Shown here piece after piece: positions 47,159-60,580 of a stretch of DNA of 64,000 nt; positions within the stretch are counted from its first letter, which is position 1, and each line of letters opens with the position of its first letter. The DNA is taken from assembly GCF_041435335.1 (NCBI RefSeq), contig NZ_CP108430.1, forward strand, positions 3,392,501 through 3,456,500, given 5' to 3'. A program made the translations under genes and the position numbers. The stretch is from Streptomyces sp. NBC_01283 (GTDB taxonomy: Bacteria; Actinomycetota; Actinomycetes; Streptomycetales; Streptomycetaceae). The notes beneath the pieces were generated by a model that did not search any database, was not told the DNA's origin, and worked only from the letters and a program-made list of their open reading frames with translations.

Positions 47159-48337
47159 CTAGTAGATCGGCTTCTCGGGCTCGATCTGGTTGACCCAGCC
47201 GATCACGCCGCCACCCACGTGCACCGCGTCGCTGAAGCCCGCGGACTTCAGTACGGCGAGGACCTCCGCGGACCGGACACCCGTCTTGCAGTGCAAGACG
47301 ATCTTCTTGTCCTGCGGAAGGTTCTCCAGGGCGGTGCCCATGAGGAACTCGTTCTTCGGGATCAGCTTGGCGCCGGGGATCGAGACGATCTCGTACTCGT
47401 TCTGCTCGCGTACGTCGATGATCTCGATCTTCTCGTCCCCGTCGATCCACTCCTTGAGCTGCTTGGGAGTGATCGTCGAGCCGAGCGCCGCCTCCTGGGC
47501 CTCGTCCGACACGACGCCGCAGAAGGCCTCGTAGTCGATGAGCTCGGTGACGGTGGCGTTCGGGCCGCAGACCGCGCAGTCCGGGTCCTTGCGGACCTTG
47601 ACCTGGCGGTACTGCATCTCCAGGGCGTCGTAGATCATCAGGCGGCCGACCAGCGGGTCTCCCACGCCAGCCAGGACCTTGATCGCCTCGGTGACCTGGA
47701 TGGAGCCGATCGACGCGCAGAGCACGCCGAGCACGCCGCCCTCGGCGCAGGACGGGACCATGCCGGGGGGCGGGGGCTCCGGGTAGAGGCAGCGGTAGCA
47801 CGGGCCGTGCTCGCTCCAGAAGACGGAGGCCTGGCCGTCGAAACGGTAGATCGAACCCCACACGTACGGCTTGTTGAGCAGCACGCAGGCGTCGTTGACC
47901 AGGTAGCGCGTGGCGAAGTTGTCCGTGCCGTCGACGATCAGGTCGTACTGGCTGAAGATGTCCATCACGTTCTCGGCCTCGAGCCGCTCTTCGTGGAGGA
48001 TCACATTCACGTACGGGTTGATGCCGAGGACCGAGTCCTTCGCCGACGCCGCCTTGGAGCGGCCGATGTCGGCCTGACTGTGGATGATCTGGCGCTGCAG
48101 GTTCGACTCGTCGACCTCGTCGAACTCCACGATGCCGAGCGTGCCGACACCGGCCGCGGCGAGGTACATCAGCGCCGGTGACCCGAGGCCGCCGGCGCCG
48201 ACACACAGCACCTTGGCGTTCTTCAGCCGCTTCTGCCCGTCCATCCCGACGTCGGGGATGATCAGGTGGCGGGAGTACCTGCGAACCTCGTCGACGGTGA
48301 GCTCAGATGCTGGCTCGACCAGGGGTGGCAGCGACAC
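47159..48337 (-). CDS. moeZ: Adenylyltransferase/sulfurtransferase MoeZ (ThiF-rhodanese fusion)
   Basis: The product is 392 aa from GTG 48337. The E1-like domain has GAGGLGSPALM (48-58), the ATP-site Arg82/Asp137 region (NLQRQIIH, DGTDNFATRY), zinc cysteines Cys180/Cys183 (CYRC) and Cys254/Cys257 (CAVC), and a Cys197 candidate for thioester transfer. A rhodanese domain from about 290 has the sulfur-loop Cys350 in LHCKTGVRS. MoeZ adenylates sulfur-carrier proteins and makes their thiocarboxylates for molybdopterin, thiamin, thioamide or cysteine routes. Downstream same-strand genes are not sulfur genes. MoaE elsewhere in this window uses its product. Confidence 0.95.
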   Translation of the reverse strand: MSLPPLVEPASELTVDEVRRYSRHLIIPDVGMDGQKRLKNAKVLCVGAGGLGSPALMYLAAAGVGTLGIVEFDEVDESNLQRQIIHSQADIGRSKAASAKDSVLGINPYVNVILHEERLEAENVMDIFSQYDLIVDGTDNFATRYLVNDACVLLNKPYVWGSIYRFDGQASVFWSEHGPCYRCLYPEPPPPGMVPSCAEGGVLGVLCASIGSIQVTEAIKVLAGVGDPLVGRLMIYDALEMQYRQVKVRKDPDCAVCGPNATVTELIDYEAFCGVVSDEAQEAALGSTITPKQLKEWIDGDEKIEIIDVREQNEYEIVSIPGAKLIPKNEFLMGTALENLPQDKKIVLHCKTGVRSAEVLAVLKSAGFSDAVHVGGGVIGWVNQIEPEKPIY

Positions 48338-48400: not shown

Positions 48401-49150
48401 TCATTCCGAGACACCTGTTCCGATGCGCGAGACGATTTCGTCCCAGTACCCGGGCATGGACTCCCACGGGTCGTCCGCCCCCCGGCCGTCGATGCGGTCG
48501 GTGAAGTAGATCGTAGACGCGCCCTGCCAGCGTGCGATGCGCAGCGCCTCGTCGAGATGGCCGCGCGGCATGCCGTGCACGAAGTGGCAGAAGCGCTCGG
48601 GCGGATAGTCGGCGGTCCACTCGGCCACCTGTGACCAGCGGTAGTCGCTCCAGGGGCCGGAGAAGGTCACCAACTGGTCGGCGGATTCGGCGTATCCGGG
48701 GTACGGATGGGTGCCGTGCCCCAGGACGATGTGCGCGTCGTCGCAGAGCGCGCGCAGCGTCGTGACCGTCCTGCGCACCTCCGGGAGCGCCGCGCGCTCC
48801 GAAGGGCACCGGTCCAGCGAGAAGCCGTCGACCTGGTACCAGTCGAGGTAGCGGTGGGCGTCGGAGATGAGCTCCCCGAAGCTGCGGGCGCCGTACGTCA
48901 CGTCGAGGTGACCGAGAACACGCACGCCCGCGTTCCGCAGCCGTCCTGCCGCCTCCAGGCAGTGCGGGTCGGGCCGGTCCCCCGGTCCCCTGCTCACATT
49001 CAGGACGACCCAGTGCAAAGGGGTACTGGGTCGGGTGAGTTCGGACCATTCGGCGGGCGCGACGAGAGGGTGCGCGAAGCCGGGGATGCCGAAGCCGAGT
49101 CGTACGTCGGTGTGTGCGGTGCCCGTGGCTGTGCTGGTCAGATGCGGCAT
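48401..49150 (-). CDS. Spherulin-4/GH135-type glycoside hydrolase-like protein
   Basis: The product is 249 aa from ATG 49150. There is no clear signal peptide, so it is cytoplasmic or exported by another route. The sequence follows the spherulation-4 (GH135) barrel: FGIPGFAHPLVAPAEWSEL, LHWVVLNVSRGPGDRPDP, RVLGHLDVTYGARS with Asp83, YQVDGFSLDRCPSE with Asp108 and Asp113, and IVLGHGTHPYPGYAE. The GH135 member Sph3 of Aspergillus cleaves galactosaminogalactan. The 13-nt overlap with the epimerase gene and the PelF-like glycosyltransferase upstream make a polysaccharide role likely. Catalytic acidic residues are assigned by alignment from memory. Confidence 0.8.
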   Translation of the reverse strand: MPHLTSTATGTAHTDVRLGFGIPGFAHPLVAPAEWSELTRPSTPLHWVVLNVSRGPGDRPDPHCLEAAGRLRNAGVRVLGHLDVTYGARSFGELISDAHRYLDWYQVDGFSLDRCPSERAALPEVRRTVTTLRALCDDAHIVLGHGTHPYPGYAESADQLVTFSGPWSDYRWSQVAEWTADYPPERFCHFVHGMPRGHLDEALRIARWQGASTIYFTDRIDGRGADDPWESMPGYWDEIVSRIGTGVSE

Positions 49151-50091
49151 GCCGCCTCCATCCAGATGTCGGCGAGTGATTCTTCGAGGTTGATCCGGGG
49201 GCGCCAGCCGAGCCGGTCGCGCGCGGTGCGCACATCGGCCTGCTGCCAGCTGCCGCACCCGTCGGGATAGGGATAGGCGGCCGGGCTCCCGTGGTCGGAT
49301 TCGGTGCGGGGGTGCCCGATGGATTGCCGCAGGGCGCCTTGGTCGAGCTCGTGCAGGGCTCCGCCGTACCCGGCGACGCGCGCCAGGACGGCCGCCGCGT
49401 CCCGCAGCCGCACGGCACGGCCCGCGCCGATGTTCACGACCCCCTGCGCGGCGGAGAGCGAGGCGGCGTGCACGGCGCGCGCCACGTCGCGTACGTCGAT
49501 GAAGTCCCGCTGGACGCCGAGCCCCCCGAGCTTAAGCTCGCCGTCCCCGGCCTGCATGGCGCGCCGCATGGCCTCGGCCAGCCGCCCGAGCGGCGAGCCG
49601 GCCGGGGTGCCGGGCCCCGCGGGCGAGAACACCCGCAGGACGACGGCATCGAGGCCCGAGCCGAGGACCAGTTCGGTGGCCGCGAGCTTGCTGACGCCGT
49701 ACGGTCCGCCGGGCCTGGGCACGGCGTCCTCGGCGGTCGAGGACCCGGGCTGGCTCGGCCCGTACTCGGCGGCGCAGCCGAGCTGCACGAGCCGCGCCCC
49801 GCATCCGCTGCGGCGCAGGGCCTCGCAGATCGTGGCGACGGCGACGGTGTTGTGCCGGGTCAGCTCGCGGGCACCGCCGCGGGTGGCGCCCGCGCAGTTG
49901 ATGACGACGCCCGGGTGCACGGCGTCCAGGAAGCGGGTGAGCGCGCCGGGGCTGCCGCTCGCGAGGTCGAACCGTACGTCCGAGTCGTCGCCGCGGCCGA
50001 GCGCGGTGAGCTGCACCGCCGGGTCGGCGAGCAGCCGGTCGGCGACGAACCGGCCGAGGTATCCGTTGGCTCCGATCAGCAGCACCCTCAT
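49138..50091 (-). CDS. NAD-dependent nucleotide-sugar epimerase/dehydratase
   Basis: The product is 317 aa from ATG 50091. Extended SDR: GANGYLGRFVADRLL (8-22), the Asp-x-R-Asp segment, YGVSKLAATELV with the catalytic Tyr and Lys, and a substrate-loop RDFIDVRDVARAV. This is a UDP-sugar-4-epimerase/reductase-like subgroup. The start overlaps the mini-ORF stop (ATGA), and the stop overlaps the GH135 start. In a PelF-type operon it would make UDP-GalNAc or an equivalent sugar. Substrate is inferred from neighbours only. Confidence 0.88.
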   Translation of the reverse strand: MRVLLIGANGYLGRFVADRLLADPAVQLTALGRGDDSDVRFDLASGSPGALTRFLDAVHPGVVINCAGATRGGARELTRHNTVAVATICEALRRSGCGARLVQLGCAAEYGPSQPGSSTAEDAVPRPGGPYGVSKLAATELVLGSGLDAVVLRVFSPAGPGTPAGSPLGRLAEAMRRAMQAGDGELKLGGLGVQRDFIDVRDVARAVHAASLSAAQGVVNIGAGRAVRLRDAAAVLARVAGYGGALHELDQGALRQSIGHPRTESDHGSPAAYPYPDGCGSWQQADVRTARDRLGWRPRINLEESLADIWMEAACRI

Positions 50092-50135
50092 CGGGCGGCT
50101 CCCGGGTCGGACTCTCGGATGCTGGGGGTGCTCAT
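50088..50135 (-). CDS. 15-codon mini-ORF coupled to the epimerase
   Basis: ATG 50135 has an AAGGAG site 9 nt upstream, and the peptide MSTPSIRESDPGAAR ends at a stop that overlaps the epimerase start (ATGA). The strong ribosome site makes translation likely. It may couple epimerase translation to the upstream membrane-protein gene across the 110-nt gap, rather than encode a functional peptide. Confidence 0.5.
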   Translation of the reverse strand: MSTPSIRESDPGAAR

Positions 50136-50245
50136 CTGGCGTTCTCCTTCAGGGGGTTGCCGTGATTCACGGGGTAAGGCCCGCGGTGTCGGCCCCGCGG
50201 GAGAGAGAGTTTTCGCATGGGGCCGGGAGGGACCGGCGCGCATCC

Positions 50246-51487
50246 TCAGGGCGCCCCGTCGCCATGCGCGGAGGCCCGGCTGAGCACCCGCAGCGAGTGG
50301 AGCAGGAGCACGCCCGCGGTCGCGCCGCACGCGACGAAGGGCACGGCACCGGGCCCCCAGGCCCGGACCACCCCCTCGACGGGCGCCGCGAGCCATGCAC
50401 ACCCGGGCAGGCGCCCCGCGAACACGGAGGCGAGCGAGGCCGCCTCCACCGCGCCCGCGGCGCCCAGCATCAGCAGGGGCGCCCGCATGAAGCCGTACGA
50501 GGAGAGCAGGCGGGCGAGGAGCAGCAGCGCGCCCAGCGCCCCTGCCCCGGCGGATGCCGGTACGCCATAGGCGGCCCCGGCCCCCACGAGGAGGACCCCG
50601 ACGGCGCACAGGTACAGCGCGACGCTGCCCAGCAGCAAGGGCCGGACGGCGGAGGTGAATTCGGCGAGCCCCCGGCTGAACGCGAGCCTTCGCCGTGCTC
50701 CCACGGCGAACAGCCGCACGCACCACACGGCGGGCGCGACGGCGAGCGAGAGCCCCAGCGCCGCGGCGGTCGACGGCGCCCAGGGGCCGTCGGGCCCGCC
50801 CGAGACGGCGGCCCGCATCAGGCCGTCGCCGAAGAGGGCGTACGCGACGAGGAAGCACACCCACGCGCGCGTGGCCGGCACGACACGGTGCGCGCAGCGC
50901 AGCGGTCCGCGCCGAAGGGCGAGCCGGAGCGCGACGGCCACGGCGAGGGCTCCGCCGAGCCCCACCGCGTACCGCGCGTGTCCCTCGCTCAGCTCGATCC
51001 CCACGGCGGCGAGTGCGCAGGCCACGCCCGGGAGGAGGGCGAACAGCGCCCACCCGGCGGGCACTTCGGGGGCTCCGCGCGACGAAGTGGCAGCGGGGGC
51101 TCCGCGCTCTTCCCCGTCGCGGGGCACGCGCGCGTACATCTCCTCGGCGAGCGCGAACACGTCCCGGTGCCGGAACCGCGCGGCGGTCCGGTCGGTCACT
51201 CCGTGCGCCTCAAGGCCCGCGGCGATCTCCAGCGGGTCGACGGCGCGCTCGCACAGCTCGCGGTGCCGGTGCATCAGTGCCTTCACGGGGTCGACGGCAC
51301 CGCGCCGCGCGGACTTGGCGGGGACGGCCCCGCTTCCACTGCCCGCAGCCGCACCTGTACCCGCACTCCGCCAGGCCGTGGGTTCGCGCACCAGTGCCGC
51401 GTCGGCCACCAGTTCCTCGGACCGCTCGTCCCAGCCGCCGGGGCTCCCCGGCGCCCGTGGGGCGTCCACCTGCCGCTCCTTGCTCAT
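50246..51487 (-). CDS. Polytopic membrane protein of the exopolysaccharide operon
   Basis: The product is 413 aa from ATG 51487, which overlaps the glycosyltransferase stop (ATGA). The first 130 residues are soluble and include DPVKALMHRHRELCERAVDPLEIAAGLEAHGVTDRTAARF and HRDVFALAEEMYARV. Eight hydrophobic segments follow (first GWALFALLPGVACALAAVGIEL, last GPGAVPFVACGATAGVLLLHSLRVL). No transporter signature is firm. A flippase or export role, like PelG, is suggested by its position with a PelF-like enzyme. The cytosolic domain is unrecognised. Confidence 0.7.
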   Translation of the reverse strand: MSKERQVDAPRAPGSPGGWDERSEELVADAALVREPTAWRSAGTGAAAGSGSGAVPAKSARRGAVDPVKALMHRHRELCERAVDPLEIAAGLEAHGVTDRTAARFRHRDVFALAEEMYARVPRDGEERGAPAATSSRGAPEVPAGWALFALLPGVACALAAVGIELSEGHARYAVGLGGALAVAVALRLALRRGPLRCAHRVVPATRAWVCFLVAYALFGDGLMRAAVSGGPDGPWAPSTAAALGLSLAVAPAVWCVRLFAVGARRRLAFSRGLAEFTSAVRPLLLGSVALYLCAVGVLLVGAGAAYGVPASAGAGALGALLLLARLLSSYGFMRAPLLMLGAAGAVEAASLASVFAGRLPGCAWLAAPVEGVVRAWGPGAVPFVACGATAGVLLLHSLRVLSRASAHGDGAP

Positions 51488-53214
51488 ACCCCCGCCCCCT
51501 TCAACCGCTCCGGTCCGTCCGCCTCTTGCGCCCAGCTGGGCGCGCCGCCCGAGCCCGCGTCCGCGCCGCCCGCGGCGACCGCCCACCGGCCCGGCATGCA
51601 GGCCTCCGCCGGATTGCCGAACGGCACGGGCTCGCCCGCGTCGTCGAGCGCTTCCCTGCGCACGGGGCAGTGCGAGACGATCTCCAGGTAGATGCCGCGG
51701 AAGGCTTCGGTGTTCTGCTCCACGGTGAACAGTTCGAGCGCTCGCGCACGCGCCGCGGCGCCGAGCCGGTCGCGTCGCCCGGCGTCGCGCAGCAGCGCCA
51801 CGCACGCCTCGGCGAGCGCCCTCGGATTGCGGGGCGGCACCACGAGGCCGGTGCCGCCGATGACCTCGACGACCGCTCCCACATCCGTGGAGACCGTCGC
51901 GCGTCCGCAGAACATCGCCTCGACCAGGCTGATCGGGAAGCCCTCGACGACGCTCGACAGGACGACGACGCTGCCCGCGGCGTACGCGTCCGCGAGTTCG
52001 GGCACGTCGGGTGCGCCGATCTCCTCGAAGGACACGGGGTTGTCGCCGACGGCGTGCGCGCCCTCCGCCTCGTCGGGGAAGAGCTGCGCGGCGAGCGCTC
52101 TGCAGTGCGCGAGGTACGCCGCCGCCTCCGGGCCTTCCGCGGGCGCCCCGACGATGCGCAGCCGCGCCTTCGGCTCCTCCTTGCGGACCTCCGCGAAGGC
52201 GTGGAGCAGGGAGATCAGGTCCTTGGCCGGTTCGATGCGCCCGACCCAGAGGAGGGTGTCGGGGTCGCCCGGGTCCTCCCGCTCGCCGACCTCCGCGAAG
52301 CGGGACGCCTCCATGCCGGGGTAGACCGTGCGCAGCTTCGCCCGCTCGGCGCCGCACCGCTCCTGCCAGCGGCGGGCGTGCGTGTTGCCGGGGGTGATGA
52401 TCGTGGCCTTGCCGTACACCTCGGCGGCGAGCCTGCCGTGGAAGGAGGTGAGCAGCGCGCGCGCCGGGGCGCTCAGTGCCTCGTCGCCGGTCGCGAGGTA
52501 GTGCGCCCGCAGCTGCACGCCGTACTCGGTGACCAGGAGCGGCACTCCGGAGAAGTGCTGGGCGAGGAGGCCGGGGACCGCCGCCGGGCCGCCGGACGTG
52601 GCGTGGCACAGGTCGACCGCGCCGAGGGCGTCGTCGCCGTACCAGTCGAGGGAGAGCGGTCGCAGGGCGCGCTCCAGGAGTCCCGCCACGACGAGCAGGT
52701 CGGACACCCGTGCGGTGCGCGCGGCGCGGAGTGCGCCCGGCGCGCGGCACGCGCCCTCCAGAGCGCGCACGGCCGCTTCGGAGCGCAGTGCGGCGACGAG
52801 GCCGCCCTGGTCCCTGGCGAGTTCGGCGAGGCCGTAAAGCGCACTGCCGAAACGGTCCGCCAACGCGTCGGAGTCGCCGGAGTCCCTCGCGGCGCCCGCC
52901 GCTCCGGAGTCGCACACCACCGCGGCCAGTTCGCCGAAGCACTCCGCGAAGCGCCGCCGCGCCCGCCGTCCGTACCCGGCCCCGAAGGCCACGCCGTCGT
53001 CGTCGACCGTCCACAGGGGCGCCGTCCGCACGCGGTTCACCTGGGGCGGCAGCTCGATCCAGCCCTGCGCCTCCTGCCGTGCGCTGCGGCTGAGGGCGTA
53101 GATGTCGAATTCGTGCTGCCCGAGCCCGCGTACGAGCCGGTCGCACCAGAGCCTGGCGTCACCGCTCACATACGGATAGCCACCCTCCGTAAGCAGTCCG
53201 ATGCGCACGCGCAC
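51484..53214 (-). CDS. PelF-like GT4 glycosyltransferase
   Basis: The product is 576 aa from GTG 53214 (GGGAG 9 nt upstream). The N-terminus RIGLLTEGGYPYVSGDARLWCDRLVRGL and LGQHEFDIYAL is the PelF-type (DUF3492) entry, seen with Y-P-Y-V-x-G. A GT4 C-terminal half has LLWVGRIEPAKDLISLLHAFAE, the E-x7-E motif in SSVVEGFPISLVEAMFCGRATVSTDVGAV, and GTGLVVPPRNPRALAEAC. PelF polymerises the Pel exopolysaccharide from UDP-GalNAc/UDP-GlcNAc. It begins the operon with the membrane protein, epimerase and GH135 protein. No exported signal. Function is by homology. Confidence 0.85.
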   Translation of the reverse strand: MRVRIGLLTEGGYPYVSGDARLWCDRLVRGLGQHEFDIYALSRSARQEAQGWIELPPQVNRVRTAPLWTVDDDGVAFGAGYGRRARRRFAECFGELAAVVCDSGAAGAARDSGDSDALADRFGSALYGLAELARDQGGLVAALRSEAAVRALEGACRAPGALRAARTARVSDLLVVAGLLERALRPLSLDWYGDDALGAVDLCHATSGGPAAVPGLLAQHFSGVPLLVTEYGVQLRAHYLATGDEALSAPARALLTSFHGRLAAEVYGKATIITPGNTHARRWQERCGAERAKLRTVYPGMEASRFAEVGEREDPGDPDTLLWVGRIEPAKDLISLLHAFAEVRKEEPKARLRIVGAPAEGPEAAAYLAHCRALAAQLFPDEAEGAHAVGDNPVSFEEIGAPDVPELADAYAAGSVVVLSSVVEGFPISLVEAMFCGRATVSTDVGAVVEVIGGTGLVVPPRNPRALAEACVALLRDAGRRDRLGAAARARALELFTVEQNTEAFRGIYLEIVSHCPVRREALDDAGEPVPFGNPAEACMPGRWAVAAGGADAGSGGAPSWAQEADGPERLKGAGV

Positions 53215-53288
53215 ACCCCCGATCTCCCATGTGGAGAGCCGCCGTTGGACCGGCGGCTCGCAGCGGGACGAACGTATGCGGACATGCC

Positions 53289-53322
53289 GGTGGCGTGATG
53301 GACGGTTGTCCATCACGCCACC
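53289..53322. terminator. 15-bp inverted repeat in the spacer before the PelF-like operon
   Basis: GGTGGCGTGATGGAC (53289-53303) pairs perfectly with 53308-53322, loop GGTT. It is 88 nt beyond the stop of the ABC-transporter ATPase gene (53410) and 75 nt upstream of the glycosyltransferase GTG. It can end the upstream operon; no U-tract follows, so an operator role is possible too. Confidence 0.55.
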
Positions 53323-53409
53323 AAAAGGGGTGAACGGCAGTAACTTTCCCGCGCCGGTAGCGTTCTGTCGCGCTATGGCGGCGAGAGAGCGCTCTTCCGC
53401 TACGGAACG

Positions 53410-55095
53410 TTAAGCTGCGGCCAGCTCCCTGCGGGCCGTACGGCGTCGCGCCGCGGCCTCCGGGTCGAGCGCGGGCACGGCCGCCAACAGCTGCCGGGTG
53501 TACGCCTGTTGCGGCGCCCCGTACACCTCGTCGACGGTTCCGTGCTCGACGATCCGCCCCTGCCGCATCACCGCGATCCGGTCGCTGACCTGGCGTACCA
53601 CCGCGAGGTCGTGGGCGATGAAGACGAGGGCGAGCCCGTGCTCCCGCTGGAGTTCGGCCAGCAGCGCGGTCACCTGCGCCTGCGTCGTCACGTCGAGCGC
53701 CGAGACCGGCTCGTCGCACACGATGACCCGGGGCTCGGCGGCGAGAGCACGCGCGATCCCGACGCGCTGCCGCTGGCCGCCGCTGAACTCGTGCGGATAG
53801 CGCCCGTAGTACGCCGGATCGAGCCCGACGCGCTCCATGAGGTCCCGCACGCGTGCGCGCACGACGGAATCGTCCCTCCCCCATTCCCGGCTTCGCTCGA
53901 GCGGGGGGACCCCCATGCCCCGCGCGCGCAGCGGATCGGCGATGGACTCCCCGATGCTGCGGCGCGGGTTGAGCGAGGAGACGGGGTCCTGGAACACCAT
54001 CTGCACGCCGGCCCGTACACCGCCGCCCGACGTCCTCTCGCCCCCGTGCCGGATCTCCCCCGCCGAAGGGTCGAGCAGCCCCACGAGCATCCGGCCGAGG
54101 GTCGTCTTGCCGCTGCCGCTCTCCCCCACGACCCCGAGCGTCTCGCCCCGGCGGACCGTGAGCGAGACGCCGTCCACCGCGGCGAAGGCGCGCTTGCCGC
54201 GGCCGAACTCCTTGCGCAGGTCCACCGCTTCGAGGACGACGTCCCCCTCTGCGGGCGGCGCCGACACCTCCCGCGGCGAGTCCACCCGGGGCACCGCCCC
54301 GAGCAGCTCCCGCGTGTACGTGTCCGCGGGCGCCCCGAGCACCTCCCGCACCGGCCCTCGTTCGACGGCCCGCCCGTACCGCATGACCAGGACGTCGTCG
54401 ACGCTCTCCGCCGCGACACCCACGTCATGGGTGACCAGGAGCAGCCCCATCCCCGTCTCGGCACGCAGCACGTGCAGCAGGTCGAGGATCTGGGCCTGCA
54501 CGGTGACGTCCAGGGCGGTCGTCGGCTCGTCGGCGATCAGGAGCTCGGGTTCGCAGGCGAGGGCCATGGCGATGAGCGCGCGCTGCCGCATGCCGCCGCT
54601 GAACTCGTGCGGCCGTGACCGCGCCCTGCGTGCGGCGTCCGGGATGCCCACCCGGTCGAGTACGTCGGCGGCACGCGCGCGTGCCGCCCTGCGCGAGGCG
54701 CCGGTGTGCACGCGGTACACCTCGGCGATCTGATCGCCCACCGCGTAGTACGGGTCGAGGGACGACAGCGGGTCCTGGAAGACCATCGCCGCCTTCCCGC
54801 CCCGCAGCCGCCGCAACTCGTCACCGGACGCCTTCTGTACGTCGATGCCGCCGACGAGGACCTCACCGCCGACGCCCGCGCCGGTGCCCCGGTGGAGTCC
54901 GAGCAGCGCGGACGCCACCGTGCTCTTGCCGGACCCCGACTCGCCGACGATGCCGAGCGCGGCGCCCTTCTCCAGCGTGAAGGAAAGCCGGTCGACGGCG
55001 CGCGTGTCCCCGAAGTCGACCACCAGGTCGGTCACTTGGACGAGACTCGCGGCAGTACGACTCATGGCAGGACTGCTCCCTACCGGACCGCTCAT
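53410..55095 (-). CDS. Dipeptide/oligopeptide ABC transporter, fused double ATPase (DppD-DppF)
   Basis: The product is 561 aa from ATG 55095, overlapping the permease stop as ATGA. Two complete ATPase modules are fused: Walker A GESGSGKST and GESGSGKTT, signatures EFSGGMRQR and EFSGGQRQR, and Walker B LLIADEP and VIVCDEP. In most importers of this type, DppD and DppF are separate. The peptide-type hallmarks HEFSGG and RARGMGV are visible. It ends in a basic Arg/Ala tail. It powers the downstream-named permeases and lipoprotein of this operon. Confidence 0.92.
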   Translation of the reverse strand: MSGPVGSSPAMSRTAASLVQVTDLVVDFGDTRAVDRLSFTLEKGAALGIVGESGSGKSTVASALLGLHRGTGAGVGGEVLVGGIDVQKASGDELRRLRGGKAAMVFQDPLSSLDPYYAVGDQIAEVYRVHTGASRRAARARAADVLDRVGIPDAARRARSRPHEFSGGMRQRALIAMALACEPELLIADEPTTALDVTVQAQILDLLHVLRAETGMGLLLVTHDVGVAAESVDDVLVMRYGRAVERGPVREVLGAPADTYTRELLGAVPRVDSPREVSAPPAEGDVVLEAVDLRKEFGRGKRAFAAVDGVSLTVRRGETLGVVGESGSGKTTLGRMLVGLLDPSAGEIRHGGERTSGGGVRAGVQMVFQDPVSSLNPRRSIGESIADPLRARGMGVPPLERSREWGRDDSVVRARVRDLMERVGLDPAYYGRYPHEFSGGQRQRVGIARALAAEPRVIVCDEPVSALDVTTQAQVTALLAELQREHGLALVFIAHDLAVVRQVSDRIAVMRQGRIVEHGTVDEVYGAPQQAYTRQLLAAVPALDPEAAARRRTARRELAAA

Positions 55096-56090
55096 GACAG
55101 GACCACCCTTCGGTCGGCCACCGCGTACAGCACGTCCGCGACGGCATTGGCGAGCACCACGAAGAAGCCGGTCACCAGGACCATGCCGACCACGACCGGC
55201 AGGTCGACGACCTTGACCGCGTGCACGAGTTCGCGCCCCATGCCGGGCAGCCCGAAGAGCGTCTCGCTGAGCACCGCGCCGCCGAACATCGACCCGAAGT
55301 CGTTGGCGCTGAGCGCGATGACCGGCGCGACCGCGCCCCGCAGGGCGTGCTTGCCGATGATCGAGCGCTCCCCGACGCCGTACGCGCGAAACGTGCGTAC
55401 GTGGTCGTCGGCGAGGGTCTCCAGCATCGAGGAGCGGGTGAGGCGCGCGTACTTGGCGGCCTCGATCAGCGCGAGCGACAGCCAGGGCAGCAGCAGGTTC
55501 CACGCCCACTGCTGCGGGTCGTCGGTGAACGGCACGTACTGCGGGAAGGGCAGCCATTCGAGCTGGCCGCAGACCACGATCATCAGCAGCAGGCCGATGA
55601 CGAAGACGGGCGTGGCCGTGCCCGCGAGCGTGACGGCGGTCAGGACCCGCTCGGTGACGCGTCCGCGCCGCCAGGCGGAGAGCACCCCGGTGCCGACCCC
55701 GAGGATCAGCCACATCACCATGGCGCCGAGCGCGAGCGACCCGGTGACCGGCAGCTTCGTCAGGATCAGCTGGGTGACCTGCTGGTCGCTCTGGTAGGAG
55801 AGCCCGAGGCAGGGGGCGTCGCAGTGCTCGACGCCGGTGCCCGTCGAGTAGTCCTGGCCGACGAAGATGCCCTGCAGGAAGTCCCAGTAGCGGACGTACA
55901 CCGGGTCGTCGAGCCGCAACTGCTCGCTCACCTGAGCCACTTGAGCCGGTGAGCAGCGCGGCCCGCAGGTGATCTGGGCGACGTCGCCGGGAGCCACGTA
56001 GAAGACCGCGTAGATGATCACGGAGATGGCGAGCAGCGTGACGAGGGTGCCCACGGAGCGCCTCAGGAAGAATCCCGGGAAACCGGTCAT
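55092..56090 (-). CDS. Dipeptide ABC transporter permease (DppB-like)
   Basis: The product is 332 aa from ATG 56090, overlapping the DppC-like stop. About six helices start with FFLRRSVGTLVTLLAISVIIYAV. A large periplasmic loop carries CGPRCSPAQ, a cysteine-rich insert (C42, C46, and C90/C94 in EHCDAPC). The EAA loop is EAAKYARLTRSSMLETLADDHVRTFRAYGV with the expected VGERSIIGKHALRGA. The paired cysteines suggest extracytoplasmic disulfides, unusual in DppB. Confidence 0.92.
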   Translation of the reverse strand: MTGFPGFFLRRSVGTLVTLLAISVIIYAVFYVAPGDVAQITCGPRCSPAQVAQVSEQLRLDDPVYVRYWDFLQGIFVGQDYSTGTGVEHCDAPCLGLSYQSDQQVTQLILTKLPVTGSLALGAMVMWLILGVGTGVLSAWRRGRVTERVLTAVTLAGTATPVFVIGLLLMIVVCGQLEWLPFPQYVPFTDDPQQWAWNLLLPWLSLALIEAAKYARLTRSSMLETLADDHVRTFRAYGVGERSIIGKHALRGAVAPVIALSANDFGSMFGGAVLSETLFGLPGMGRELVHAVKVVDLPVVVGMVLVTGFFVVLANAVADVLYAVADRRVVLS

Positions 56091-57079
56091 GCCTTGCCCT
56101 CCCGCTTGCGCCCCGTCCCGATGCTCAGCCGCGACGCGGCCCGTGGATCGAGCGCGGTCCGCACGCCGTCACCGAGGACGGTCAGCGCGAGGACGGTCAC
56201 GAACAGAGCCCCGGCGGGCAGCAGTAGGTACTGCGGCGCGGCCTGGTACCAGATGTCGGCCGAGGTGAGCATCTGGCCCCAGGACGCGGTCGGCGGTTTG
56301 ACGCCGACGCCGAGGAAGGAGAGCGCGGCCTCCACCGTGATGTTCACGGGGACGAGCAGCGCCGCGTAGGTGATGACGGGGGCGGCGAGTCCCGGCAGGA
56401 GTTCGCGGCGCGCGATGCGCCAGGTGCTCCAGCCGCTCAGCCGGGCGGCGGCCACGTAATCGAGCTCCTTGAGGGTGATGGTCTGCGCGCGCACGATCTT
56501 GGCCGTGCTGCCCCAGGCGATGAGCCCGATGACCAGGGCGACCAGGACGGGGCGCGGGAAGCCGCTGGGCACGATCGCCATCAGGGCGAGCGAGAGGACC
56601 ATCAGCGGCATGGCGACGATGACGTCGGTGGCGCGGCTGAGCACCTGGTCCACCAGGCGGTTGCCGAGCCCGGCCGCGATGCCGACGCCGACGCCGAGCA
56701 CCACCTGGACGACCGTCGCGGCGAGCGCGACACCGAGGGAGACCCGCGCGCCGTACACGAGCCGGGCGAACAAATCCCGCCCGGTCTGCGGTTCGACGCC
56801 GAGCCAGTGCTCGGCGCTGATCCCGCCGAACGAGCCGATGGGCACGCCGCCACGGCCGGAGTCGATGAGGTCGGGGTGGTACGTGCTGGGGTCCTGGCCC
56901 TCGATGGCGGTGAGCAGCGGCGCGGCGAGCGCGACCAGGACGAGAAGCGCGACGACGGCCGCCGCGACGAGGGCGGCGCGCTGCGTGCGCAGCCGCCGCC
57001 AGAACTGACGGGCACCGGAAGCCGGGGCGGGCGCCGTGACGCCCGTCCCCGCTCCCGAGGCCAACAGGGCCTCGCTCAT
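56087..57079 (-). CDS. Dipeptide ABC transporter permease (DppC-like)
   Basis: The product is 330 aa from ATG 57079, overlapping the DppB-like start. Hydrophobic segments begin AAAVVALLVLVALAAPLLTAI; the DppC motif EHWLGVEPQTGRDLFARLVYGARVSL is intact. The EAA loop is ELDYVAAARLSGWSTWRIARRELLPGLAAP. It ends in a basic tail. The protein pairs with the DppB-like permease in the peptide importer. Confidence 0.92.
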   Translation of the reverse strand: MSEALLASGAGTGVTAPAPASGARQFWRRLRTQRAALVAAAVVALLVLVALAAPLLTAIEGQDPSTYHPDLIDSGRGGVPIGSFGGISAEHWLGVEPQTGRDLFARLVYGARVSLGVALAATVVQVVLGVGVGIAAGLGNRLVDQVLSRATDVIVAMPLMVLSLALMAIVPSGFPRPVLVALVIGLIAWGSTAKIVRAQTITLKELDYVAAARLSGWSTWRIARRELLPGLAAPVITYAALLVPVNITVEAALSFLGVGVKPPTASWGQMLTSADIWYQAAPQYLLLPAGALFVTVLALTVLGDGVRTALDPRAASRLSIGTGRKREGKA

Positions 57080-57099
57080 GATGATGTGACCGGTAGCCC

Positions 57100-58827
57100 C
57101 TACTTGACCGCGACCTGCGAGACGTCGAGGACGCCCGTCCAGTCGCTGATCACGATGTTCTTGACGTCCTTGCCGTACAGCCGCTTGTAGACCGGGTGGA
57201 AGAGCGGCACGGTCAGGGCCTGCTCGCCGATCTTCTTGTCGAGGGCGCCCCAGCGCTTGGCCGCCGCGTCGAGGTCGGTGAGCTTGTTGATCTCGTCGAT
57301 CTCGTCGTTGACGGCCTTGTCGTCCAGGAAGCCGGTGTTGAAGTTGGCGCCGTCCTTCACGATCTGCCGTCCGTCGAAGATCGGGGCGAGGAAGGGGCCG
57401 CCGGAGGGCCAGTCGGCACCCCAGTGGGCGAGGAAGAGACCCGGCTCGGACTTGGCGCTGTGCACCTTGTCCTTGTAGTCGTTGTCCTCCAGGCCCTCCA
57501 GCTTGACCTTGATCCCGGCCTTCTTCAGGGCGTCCTGGATCGCGGTGGCGATCTCCGGGCTCGTCTCGAAGTCCTTGGCGTTGGAGTGGGTCAGCGTGAT
57601 GGTGAGCCCGTCCTTGTGACCGGCCTCCTTCAGGAGCTCCCTGGCCTTCTTCGCGTTGCCGGACTTGCCTGCCGGGAAGTGGTCGTACTTCGTGTATCCG
57701 AAGGACTTCTGGTTCGGCAGGTACGTCGTGGCGGGCTCGGCGAGCGACGAGCCGCCTGCCGCGTTGACCACGGAGGAGCGGTCGACGGCGTACGAGATGG
57801 CCTGGCGCACCTTCGGGTCGTCGAAGGGCTTCACCTTCGGGTTGAAGGCGAGGTAATTCGTGTATCCGAAGTGCCCGGTGCCGACGCGCGAGGCCAGTGC
57901 CTTGTCGCCGGTGACCTTGGCGAGTTCGGCGGGGCCGAGGTTGGTGTCGGTGGTCACGGCGGCGGCGTCCGCGCCCTGACCGGCCGAGAGCCGCTGGTTG
58001 ATGACGGAGGAGTTGAGGCCGGACCGCACGTCGATCTTGTCCGGGTAGGCCTTGCGCTCCGGGTCGGTCTTCGCCGACCAGTGCGGGTTGCGCTCCAGGG
58101 TCAGGCGCTCGCCGTCGTTCTCGTTCTTCACGACCTTGTACGGGCCCGAGGAGACCGGGTGCTCCTCGTACTTCGTGCCCTTGTCCTTGCTCTTGGGGAC
58201 AGGCGTGAACTGCGTCTGCGTCGCCAGATAGGGGAATTCACCCTCGGGCTTGTTCAGCCGGAAGACGATGGTCCGCTCGTCGGGCGTCTCGATCGACTTC
58301 AGCCCCTTGCCGCTCTTGTCCTTGTAGGGCCCGGCGTACTTGTCGCCGCCGATCAGCCAGTCCCTCAAATAGGGCGCGCCACCGGAGAGTTCGCCGGCGA
58401 AGGAGCGCTCGATGCCGTACTTGATGTCGGCGGAGGTGATCGGCGAACCGTCCTCGTACTTGAGCCCCTTCTTCAGGGTGTACGTCCACACCGTGGCGTT
58501 CTTGCTCGACTTGCCGAGGTCCGTGGCGAGGTCCGGCACGACCTCCGAGCCCTTGGCGCCGTCCTCGCGGTTGCGGGTGGTCAGGGTGCGGAAGACGAGC
58601 GAGGGGACGTTCCCGCCGCCGGAGGTGTAGAGCCGCGCCGGGTCGAAGTCGACCTGCGGGTCGCTGTTGAGGACGGTGAGCGTGCCGCCCTTGGCGGGCT
58701 TGCCGTCGGCGCCGCCGCCCCCGGCGTCGTTGTCCTCGGGGCCCGCGCAGGCGGCGGCGCCCGCTGCCAGGACGAGGCTGACGGATGCCGCTGCCACGCG
58801 GCGGGCTATGACGGACGGTTGGCGCAT
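57100..58827 (-). CDS. Substrate-binding lipoprotein of the peptide importer (DppA/OppA family)
   Basis: The product is 575 aa from ATG 58827. Lipoprotein signal MRQPSVIARRVAAASVSLVLAAGAAACAGP with lipidated Cys27. The family-5 (peptide/nickel) binding-protein core is clear: TLTVLNSDPQVDFDPARLYTSGG, the KKGLKYEDGSPITSADIKYGIERSF region, AISYAVDRSSVVNAAGGS and WGADWPSGGPFL. It is the first gene of the four-gene operon. Peptide specificity is not predictable. Confidence 0.92.
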   Translation of the reverse strand: MRQPSVIARRVAAASVSLVLAAGAAACAGPEDNDAGGGGADGKPAKGGTLTVLNSDPQVDFDPARLYTSGGGNVPSLVFRTLTTRNREDGAKGSEVVPDLATDLGKSSKNATVWTYTLKKGLKYEDGSPITSADIKYGIERSFAGELSGGAPYLRDWLIGGDKYAGPYKDKSGKGLKSIETPDERTIVFRLNKPEGEFPYLATQTQFTPVPKSKDKGTKYEEHPVSSGPYKVVKNENDGERLTLERNPHWSAKTDPERKAYPDKIDVRSGLNSSVINQRLSAGQGADAAAVTTDTNLGPAELAKVTGDKALASRVGTGHFGYTNYLAFNPKVKPFDDPKVRQAISYAVDRSSVVNAAGGSSLAEPATTYLPNQKSFGYTKYDHFPAGKSGNAKKARELLKEAGHKDGLTITLTHSNAKDFETSPEIATAIQDALKKAGIKVKLEGLEDNDYKDKVHSAKSEPGLFLAHWGADWPSGGPFLAPIFDGRQIVKDGANFNTGFLDDKAVNDEIDEINKLTDLDAAAKRWGALDKKIGEQALTVPLFHPVYKRLYGKDVKNIVISDWTGVLDVSQVAVK

Positions 58828-59128: not shown

Positions 59129-60580
59129 TCAACTCTTGGGAAAAGCCCAGGGGTTGGCCTTGCACTTGATTCCGTCGTGGTCGAGGAACTTCGTCTGCTG
59201 CTGCATGACGGGCGCGAGCTCGCCGTCCTTCGTGCAGTCCGTGTGGTTGAAGCCGAGCCGGTGCCCGACCTCGTGATTGATCAGCATCTGCCGGTACGGG
59301 TGGATGCGGTCGCCGTAGGTCTTGGCGCCCTGCGCCCAGCGATAGGCGTTGATCATCACGCGGTCCGTGGCGGCGGAGTCACAGGAGACGTTCTGCGCCA
59401 TGGTGTCGAGCCCGGACTTCGCGCACCACTTCGCGGTCGTCCCCGGGCTCGCGAGCGTGATCACGAAATCGGGCTTCCCCGAAGAGATCCGCTCGAAGGT
59501 CCGGCCGCCCTTGTGCGCCCAGCTCCGGTCGTCGTTCAGGGTCTTCTGCACGGCCGACGCGAACAGTTCGCCGTCCAGGCCCATGCCCTTCTCGACGTCG
59601 ACGCGGTAGCGGAACAACTGCCCCTTGCCCGGCGCCTTTTCGAACCCGGCCATCGCGTCGAAGTCGCCGGACGCCGTGAGCTTGGCGTCGAGCGGATACT
59701 TCTTCGCCATCTTCGTCTCGTACGTCGCCGGGGCGGACTCGGGGGGCGTGGGCCGGTCGTCCGAGCGGGACGCGTCCTCGCCCGCGGCGCGGCCGTCCTG
59801 GCCCTCCGCGGCCTGTGTCCTGGGAGCGGCGGAGTCCTTCGGCCCGCCGGTCACCTGGCCGGCCACCACGACCGCGAGGACGGTGGTGACAGCGGCGGCG
59901 GCGATCCCGGTGAAGGTGCGGCCCTTGCCGCCGCCCTTGCCTTCCTTGGCGTCGCCGTCCGCGGGGGCTCCGGGGCCGCCATCGGCTCCATCCGCTCCGT
60001 CGGCCGCGTCGGCCCAGAGCTCTCCCTGTGCTTCCTCTTCCTCGTCGACCGAGCGGTCCCAGTCGGTGACGGAGGCGTACGGGTCACGGGGCGGGGGTGT
60101 CCGCAGGGGCGGGCCCCCGGCCGCCATGGGCGCCGGACCGGTCACCGTGGGCGTGGCACCGGTCGCGCCGCCCCCGAAGAGGTCCTCCTCCGCGAACTCG
60201 TCGCCGAACGCGTCCACGTACTCGCGGCGCGGCCCCGGCAAGCGGGGCGGCGCGGTCCGCGCTCCCGGCGCCCCGTAGGCGGCACCCAGCCGCGGCCCGG
60301 CTCCCCACGCCCCGCCCGGCTCACGCTGCTCGGGGTGGCCACCACGGACATGCGGCGAGCCGTGCGGCGGGGTGGCCTGGGGCATGCCGCGCGGCGGGGT
60401 CGCCTGCGGGAAGCCGTGCGCGGGCGTGCCGGGGTCCCCGGGAGCGCGTCTGCGGCGTCCCGTGCCGGGAGCCGGCGGACGTGTGCCCTGCGGTGCCGGT
60501 ACGTCGCCGGTGTCTGTGTTGCCCGCGCTGCCCGTGTTGTCTGCGAGGTCGGCCGAACCTCGGCGGCTATGACGTCCCAC
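59129..60580 (-). CDS. DUF3152 secreted zinc-metallopeptidase-like protein
   Basis: The product is 483 aa from GTG 60580. A long Gly/Pro-rich cytoplasmic region with repeated PQATPP units is followed by one membrane segment, FTGIAAAAVTTVLAVVVAGQV, near residue 230. The extracytoplasmic C-terminal domain carries HEVGHRLGFNH (436-446), a metzincin-type zinc site. Two Cys near the end (KWCAKS, VSCDSA) and two more (TDCTKD, IKCKAN) may form disulfides. M. tuberculosis Rv3207c is of this family. It lies 8 nt after the alpha/beta hydrolase stop, on the same strand. Confidence 0.87.
   Translation of the reverse strand: MGRHSRRGSADLADNTGSAGNTDTGDVPAPQGTRPPAPGTGRRRRAPGDPGTPAHGFPQATPPRGMPQATPPHGSPHVRGGHPEQREPGGAWGAGPRLGAAYGAPGARTAPPRLPGPRREYVDAFGDEFAEEDLFGGGATGATPTVTGPAPMAAGGPPLRTPPPRDPYASVTDWDRSVDEEEEAQGELWADAADGADGADGGPGAPADGDAKEGKGGGKGRTFTGIAAAAVTTVLAVVVAGQVTGGPKDSAAPRTQAAEGQDGRAAGEDASRSDDRPTPPESAPATYETKMAKKYPLDAKLTASGDFDAMAGFEKAPGKGQLFRYRVDVEKGMGLDGELFASAVQKTLNDDRSWAHKGGRTFERISSGKPDFVITLASPGTTAKWCAKSGLDTMAQNVSCDSAATDRVMINAYRWAQGAKTYGDRIHPYRQMLINHEVGHRLGFNHTDCTKDGELAPVMQQQTKFLDHDGIKCKANPWAFPKS

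Follow-up and report, generated by a model that had tools for sequence, protein, structure and literature searches.

A conserved glycan operon of Streptomyces, related to Pel and galactosaminogalactan systems, with altered hydrolase and SDR active sites

Introduction

Streptomyces development depends on surface glycans, and to our knowledge few of these glycans have been assigned to genes. A compact group of four genes in the genome of Streptomyces sp. NBC_01283 raises the question of what kind of glycan system it encodes. The group lies in a stretch of 64,000 nucleotides (assembly GCF_041435335.1, contig NZ_CP108430.1, positions 3,392,501 to 3,456,500 of the forward strand), which we call the window and whose numbering is used for all positions given without a contig. 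The genes run head to tail on the minus strand, from 53208 down to 48401, and encode a glycosyltransferase (GT), a membrane protein, a short-chain dehydrogenase/reductase (SDR) and a GH135-like protein:

51484..53208, minus strand: PelF-like GT4 glycosyltransferase (DUF3492 plus GT4; Pfam and NCBIfam), 574 amino acids, GR..K and E-x7-E intact
50246..51487, minus strand: membrane partner, 413 amino acids, with an N-terminal helical domain (67-120), 8 predicted transmembrane (TM) helices and a MOP-like model
49138..50091, minus strand: NAD-dependent, epimerase-like SDR, 317 amino acids, Tyr-x3-Lys intact, Cys at the catalytic Ser position
48401..49150, minus strand: spherulin-4/GH135-like protein, 249 amino acids, with Ser164, Arg114 and Asp113 at the positions of Sph3 Glu222, Glu167 and Asp166

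An earlier note, made from the letters of this DNA, named these four families and saw in them a candidate reduced machinery for a polymer like Pel, which is rich in N-acetylgalactosamine (GalNAc), or like fungal galactosaminogalactan (GAG), with a GH135-like enzyme that may act inside the cell on a lipid-linked or nascent chain. The family names hold, for the GT, SDR and GH135 by Pfam and NCBIfam and for the eight-span membrane protein by an AlphaFold2 model. Our results show that this is a widely conserved glycan operon, related to Pel and GAG systems. It cannot be counted as an ordinary member of these systems, since it is without the deacetylase and has changed active sites in both the hydrolase and the SDR. 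Papers are cited by their PMC numbers.

Results

Conservation and sister operons

The earlier note expected the quartet beyond the genus, and the complete operon does indeed occur in five other genera of the family. In our sample of 197 genomes of the class, 16 of them from the window's genus, each of these 16 proved to have a DUF3492 match that is a window-type locus, with the GH135 gene in 15/16; several of these genomes carry one or two additional, much stronger DUF3492 matches near a spherulin-4 gene. Our home-made gene caller trims some starts, and the lengths of sampled loci are approximate. Among the matches listed, the closest homologues are from Streptomyces.

We refer to the window's arrangement, GT-membrane-SDR-GH135-moeZ, as type C. 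One type C locus (L085, genome G153) is missing the GH135-like gene, and in genome G279 this gene was not found. A set of named loci (80 kept of 341 found) shows the order GT-TM-SDR-GH135-MoeZ in 69/80; in the other 11 the DNA stops at most 2.6 kb upstream of GH135. The gene order of the quartet plus MoeZ is beyond chance. The fifth gene follows the GH135 gene after a gap of 63 bp and is probably not part of the glycan system:

47159..48337, minus strand: moeZ (adenylyltransferase/sulfurtransferase), the constant downstream neighbour

Type A operons (7 loci) combine a GT, the same membrane family, an epimerase-like gene, a nucleotidyltransferase and an SDR, with GH135 in 6/7. Type B operons (5 loci) consist of a GT, a membrane protein and GH135. 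Types A and B are the kind of agd3 operon described by Bamford et al. (2020, PMC7229062), in which a cytoplasmic GT and a multispan membrane protein occur together, with a spherulin-4 gene in some Actinobacteria. One family of deacetylase-like proteins is represented in 6/7 type A loci, 5/5 type B loci and 3/4 other loci, the fourth being a short contig. This family was found in 0/15 type C loci and in 0/9 moeZ-linked loci of other genera. A whole-genome query for the CE18 deacetylase found it in G073, G101 and G133, and did not find it in G000 (the window's genome), G018 or G191. In Pfam, a type A deacetylase scores 27.7 bits against the Agd3_CE cut-off of 27.6, a type B member has no match, and the deacetylase of G095 has clear CBM87 and Agd3_CE matches.

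The GT tree and the GH135-like tree each set type C apart as a single well-supported clade on a long stem. We read the window operon as a paralogue that has diverged from accessory operons, most of which have an Agd3/CE18-like deacetylase, as does the fungal GAG cluster. The relation to GAG- and Pel-type loci that the earlier note had proposed is borne out by these sister operons.

The GH135-like protein has lost its acid/base residue

The last protein of the quartet matches PF12138 Spherulin4 at 81.8 bits (cut-off 30.2), and a profile of ten GH135 relatives matches the Sph3 structure 5c5g with E = 8.9e-30. The putative catalytic residues of Sph3 are Asp166, Glu167 and Glu222 (PMC10485009). 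They are printed as Asp196/Glu222 in PMC12054363, where we take Asp196 to be a slip. AlphaFold2 modelled the GH135-like protein at a predicted local distance difference test score (pLDDT) of 39 from 29 close sequences, and our reading of the active site rests on the alignment to Sph3.

The earlier note's working GH135 is not supported by this alignment: the acidic pair, whose absence the note itself had named as refuting, is missing. Among the 120 listed homologues of 1264 (28 of the 120 make up alignment A3), the Glu222 position, Ser in the window, holds Ser in 91, Ala in 17, Thr in 10, Arg in 2 and Glu in none. The Glu167 position is Arg in 119/120. Only the Asp166 position (Asp113 in the window) is largely kept, with Asp in 102/120; the other 18 have G, H, E, N, S or Y. 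The 80 named loci give the same picture: Ser 58, Ala 16, Thr 5 and Cys 1 at the Glu222 position (Glu 0/80), and Asp at the Asp113 position in 71/80, replaced in 9/80. By comparison, the GH135 proteins of type A, type B and other operons have Glu222 in 13/13 and Glu at 167 in 0/13.

Outside the changed active site the protein is highly conserved, with many residues invariant in the 120 listed homologues, and a crude estimate from 15 sequences puts its ratio of nonsynonymous to synonymous change (dN/dS) at 0.33, next to 0.35 for the GT. As the earlier note had said, no signal peptide is visible by eye (no signal-peptide program was run): about 20 residues precede the barrel and contain no hydrophobic stretch. 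The GH135 proteins of types A and B begin directly at the barrel. Since the protein is conserved, has no visible signal peptide and has lost Glu222, we read it as a cytosolic pseudo-hydrolase. Judged from its sequence, this retained protein without an acid/base may now sense or shape the chain and not cut it.

Locus L065 (G006, contig C118) combines two GH135 proteins, one encoded in a GT-membrane operon and lacking a signal peptide, the other with a signal-like start, close to a protein of the deacetylase family that has FN3 repeats and a CBM87 match too weak to reach the cut-off.

A coupled change in the SDR

The SDR matches PF01370 at 127.1 bits, and both its NAD motif (GANGYLG) and its Tyr-x3-Lys (YGVSK) are intact in the window. 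In GalE, the catalytic Ser/Thr stands four positions ahead of the YG-motif Tyr. This position is Cys in 16/16 type C loci and in 80/80 named loci, and Ser in 7/7 type A loci. The GalE model scores only 34.6 bits on the SDR, its cut-off being 262.3. The closest solved structures are a GDP-6-deoxy-hexulose reductase (72.9 bits) and then, lower, GalE-like enzymes. The earlier note's nucleoside-diphosphate-sugar epimerase stands in part: the epimerase family, the NAD motif and Tyr-x3-Lys are there, the catalytic Ser is Cys, and the role in making the precursor is uncertain.

The change in the SDR goes together with the change in the GH135-like protein. In a tally of 126 loci, which is not a count of independent events as some genomes are in both collections, 101 have Cys without Glu, one has Cys and no GH135, 11 have Ser with Glu, one has Ser with Asp (L185) and three have Ser with no aligned GH135; this SDR is absent from nine, of which eight have Glu. 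The joint replacement of Ser by Cys and loss of Glu is probably one inherited change. In other genera of the family the changed residues occur in 7 moeZ-linked operons (g96, g97, g102, g106), and in the operons L182 (g98) and L186 (g104) the SDR still has its Ser and the GH135 protein its Glu. L185 (g99), with its Ser and Asp, contains SDR, GH135 and moeZ; its stretch yielded neither a GT nor a membrane gene.

The glycosyltransferase and its membrane partner

The GT carries DUF3492 (PF11997, 94.8 bits) plus GT4 domains, and scores 105.6 bits against the NCBIfam PelF model NF038011, just above the curated cut-off of 100. Models for mycothiol, glycogen and trehalose enzymes score lower than PelF and far under their own cut-offs, so that the PelF-like GT of the earlier note is upheld. 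By NF038011, membership in PelF itself is marginal, because the only other type C GT that was scored (L088) reaches 77.7 bits, below the cut-off. Four relatives from type A, type B and other operons score 160-173 bits. The motifs G-R..K and E-x7-E, which we take to be GT active-site motifs, are both intact in the window and in 15/16 type C loci overall; L079 is without the Arg. A search of GT fusions for a link to fungal Gtb3 returned 0/57 matches with a fungal name, an absence that shows nothing, as most matches are nameless. Five PelF-like GTs (P0241-P0245) have FHA domains (PF00498) in the precomputed Pfam list, hinting at phospho-dependent control of such synthases.

The membrane protein matched no Pfam or NCBIfam family. 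In its AlphaFold2 model (mean pLDDT 80.7), 8 helices span the membrane and residues 67-120 form a helical domain towards the N terminus. In many other proteins this membrane family is fused to PelF-like GTs (alignment A2 contains 10 fusions together with 49 of the 120 membrane homologues listed; the membrane profile omits L058). When the model is ranked with VIA, the 13 best alignments are all MOP flippases (MurJ, WzxE, NorM and other MATE proteins). This likeness of the model to MOP flippases is suggestive only. An apparent triple fusion of GT, TM and GH135 (P0289) was rejected; the stretch between its membrane part and GH135 reads as a frameshift.

Coupling of the genes and the leader

The earlier note placed the GT start at 53214. 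Comparison moves it to the GTG at 53208, since 63/64 distinct upstream sequences have GTG at this point and one has ATG. The tight coupling that the note described is confirmed: the GT stop and the membrane-gene start overlap as ATGA, the GH135 gene overlaps the SDR gene by 13 bp, and a short open reading frame (ORF) bridges the remaining gap:

50088..50135, minus strand: ORF of 15 codons, located between the genes for the membrane protein and the SDR, with an ATGA overlap with the SDR start

The ATGA overlap of this ORF with the SDR start is present in 79/79 relatives with enough DNA, and an ATG lies exactly 15 codons upstream in 54/79. Many versions of the peptide start with MxT and finish with PGAAR. 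The ORF probably serves translational coupling.

Upstream of the GT start lies a conserved leader:

53216..53345, minus strand: operon leader with predicted structure; hairpins at 53289-53322 and 53236-53259, and a CACCCC/GGGGUG stem before the GT start

The first hairpin has 15 to 16 bp, a second follows, and the predicted CACCCC-GGGGUG stem lies just before the start codon. The leader is kept whichever gene lies upstream (the ABC operon in 34/63, DUF3152 in 28/63, unclear in 1), and its folding z is -6.8. A covariance model finds it in 15/15 type C loci (L079 weakly, at 30.9 bits), at no significant score in 16 other loci, in 8/14 loci of other genera, all 8 of them moeZ-linked, and at one place across the genome. 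Against Rfam nothing exceeded the gathering score. In 36 sequences (alignment A4: the window plus 35 of 62 listed leaders, L116, which contains N, having been dropped earlier), 98.2% of cells pair and 10 cells are changed on both sides versus 3.1 in shuffles. In 22 more diverse sequences all five measures beat every shuffle, with 94.9% paired and with two-sided changes in 10 pairs and 17 cells; the structure had guided the fitting of this alignment, and 8/22 sequences have no letters in the second hairpin. Alignment A5 leaves out the window and L079, whose leader is weak. One could also argue that the leader is a DNA palindrome. We favour an RNA because G-U pairs are frequent, and the operon may be controlled by a leader RNA that covers the ribosome binding site.

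A promoter scan found no promoter. A single terminator-like site lies within moeZ, on the plus strand, and is not above chance. A DUF3152 gene (59129-60217, minus strand) lies upstream of the GT in 16/16 type C loci; in 7/16 a four-gene oligopeptide-type ABC transporter operon (53410-58827, minus strand) stands between the two.

Discussion

What, then, does the operon do? We give about an even chance to the view that it is a core Streptomyces operon that makes and exports a cell-surface glycan and has diverged from a Pel/GAG-type synthase operon. The cytosolic PelF-like GT, with its intact motifs, would polymerise or transfer sugars from a nucleotide sugar. The membrane protein would hold the GT at the membrane through its cytosolic domain and carry the product across in a MOP- or PelG-like manner, as the fusions and the MOP-like ranking suggest. 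The SDR, conserved with Cys in place of Ser, would make or modify the sugar nucleotide with its altered active site. Binding to the nascent chain or to the synthase is the probable role of the cytosolic pseudo-GH135, which could in this way regulate length or release. The operon would be switched on in development. Since the search for a CE18 deacetylase gave no match, a cationic adhesive polymer such as type A and B operons should make is probably not the product. The GalNAc polymer that the earlier note predicted is better fitted by these sister operons than by the window operon.

Several observations weigh against this view. Plain Foldseek returned nothing significant for the membrane model, and a PelG profile built from two sequences did not match the membrane family. 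The window protein also differs from the MOP superfamily, its best VIA alignments, in having only 8 predicted helices and an extra N-terminal domain. For the leader, two measures in the 36 sequences are not above shuffles: pairs changed on both sides (3 vs 2.0; 147/500) and pair types (18 vs 18.7; 444/500). Part of this also speaks for a rival, in which no polymer is exported, a short glycan is put on a lipid, wall polymer or metabolite, and the membrane protein is a mere anchor. The 8 helices, compared with 9 to 11 hydropathy peaks in the four type A/B proteins counted, the Foldseek result and the lost polymer-processing residues all suit such an anchor. On the other hand, the same membrane family is found next to PelF-type GTs or fused to them, most of the loci concerned having a deacetylase that modifies polymers, and its model ranks as MOP-like in VIA. 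We consider the short-glycan explanation rather unlikely. The earlier note's proposal that the membrane protein replaces PelG is plausible, with the GT fusions and the VIA ranking in its favour and the PelG-profile and Foldseek nulls against it.

The earlier note's model, taken as a full if compact Pel/GAG-like system in which an active GH135 would trim an alpha-1,4-linked GalNAc polymer, draws on the presence of a PelF-like GT, an epimerase-like SDR and a GH135 family member in one operon, and on the GAG-type sister operons. It has to contend with the loss of the acid/base Glu from all 120 listed homologues and all 80 named loci, with the Cys at the SDR catalytic position in the same 80, and with a genome in which neither a CE18 deacetylase nor a PelG above the cut-off of 29 was found (one partial PelG match elsewhere has 23.4 bits). 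We regard it as very unlikely. It is also improbable, in our judgement, that the GH135-like protein is still an enzyme that uses Asp113 as nucleophile with an acid/base from elsewhere, or works as a transglycosylase or lyase. The Asp retained by most homologues and the many further invariant residues would fit such an enzyme, but the Asp is replaced in 18/120 listed homologues and 9/80 named loci, and Arg has taken the Glu167 position almost throughout.

The fungal GAG cluster comprises uge3, gtb3, agd3, sph3 and ega3 and, like the window operon, groups epimerase, GT and GH135 genes (PMC4817252); its Sph3 is described as a membrane-bound enzyme that cleaves the polymer close to the synthase, on the outer face (PMC12054363). 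In contrast, the window GH135-like protein has no visible signal peptide and no Glu222, no deacetylase was found, and the two GH114 (endo-galactosaminidase family) matches of the window's genome (G000:C1:8317466-8318119 and 8325185-8325793) lie outside the operon, about 4.9 Mb away. The Gram-positive Pel operon pelDEA(DA)FG shares a PelF-type GT, a membrane partner and nearby GalE-like genes (PMC7112168), and differs in its PelG. Compared with the agd3 operons (PMC7229062), the window operon is without the CE18 deacetylase, the acid/base Glu and the SDR catalytic Ser, and forms a separate clade beside moeZ.

A more specific scenario, which we put forward tentatively and think possible rather than probable, is that a synthase operon of GAG/Pel type was recast in a common ancestor of Streptomyces and its related genera as a core glycan system for development. 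The SDR and GH135 would have changed jointly (Ser to Cys in the one, loss of Glu in the other), the cytosolic pseudo-GH135 would then have become a chain-sensing or length-setting subunit of the complex of GT and membrane protein, and a new family of leader RNAs covering the ribosome binding site would have arisen. The intermediate operons L182, L185 and L186 are useful for tracing the SDR/GH135 change. The operon supplies a natural example in which a glycan hydrolase has stayed conserved in a synthase operon despite losing its acid/base, with Glu-keeping relatives in other genera (L182, L186), and the membrane family is a candidate exporter with no Pfam or NCBIfam match in the members tested.

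The appeal of the operon lies in its presence in all 16 same-genus genomes together with the rise of three presumed S. coelicolor genes in the second mycelium. SCO5178 is moeB (PMC4340878), and therefore the quartet should be SCO5174-5177 by gene order, an assignment made by locus numbering alone. SCO5179-5182 had been considered as orthologues and were dropped, no papers having been found; the numbering was then taken as SCO5174-5178. In the open literature searched we found no paper on the function of the operon; the mentions are a transcriptome table, a mutagenesis screen and texts that name only SCO5178 of these loci. A published table gives SCO5174 ('transferase'), SCO5175 and SCO5177 increases of log2 2.2 to 3.8 in mycelium II at 24, 48 and 72 h and does not contain SCO5176 (PMC3610822). 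SCO5174 appears in a list of putative glycosyltransferases that may serve cell wall synthesis, and its mutant has reduced actinorhodin (PMC6585502).

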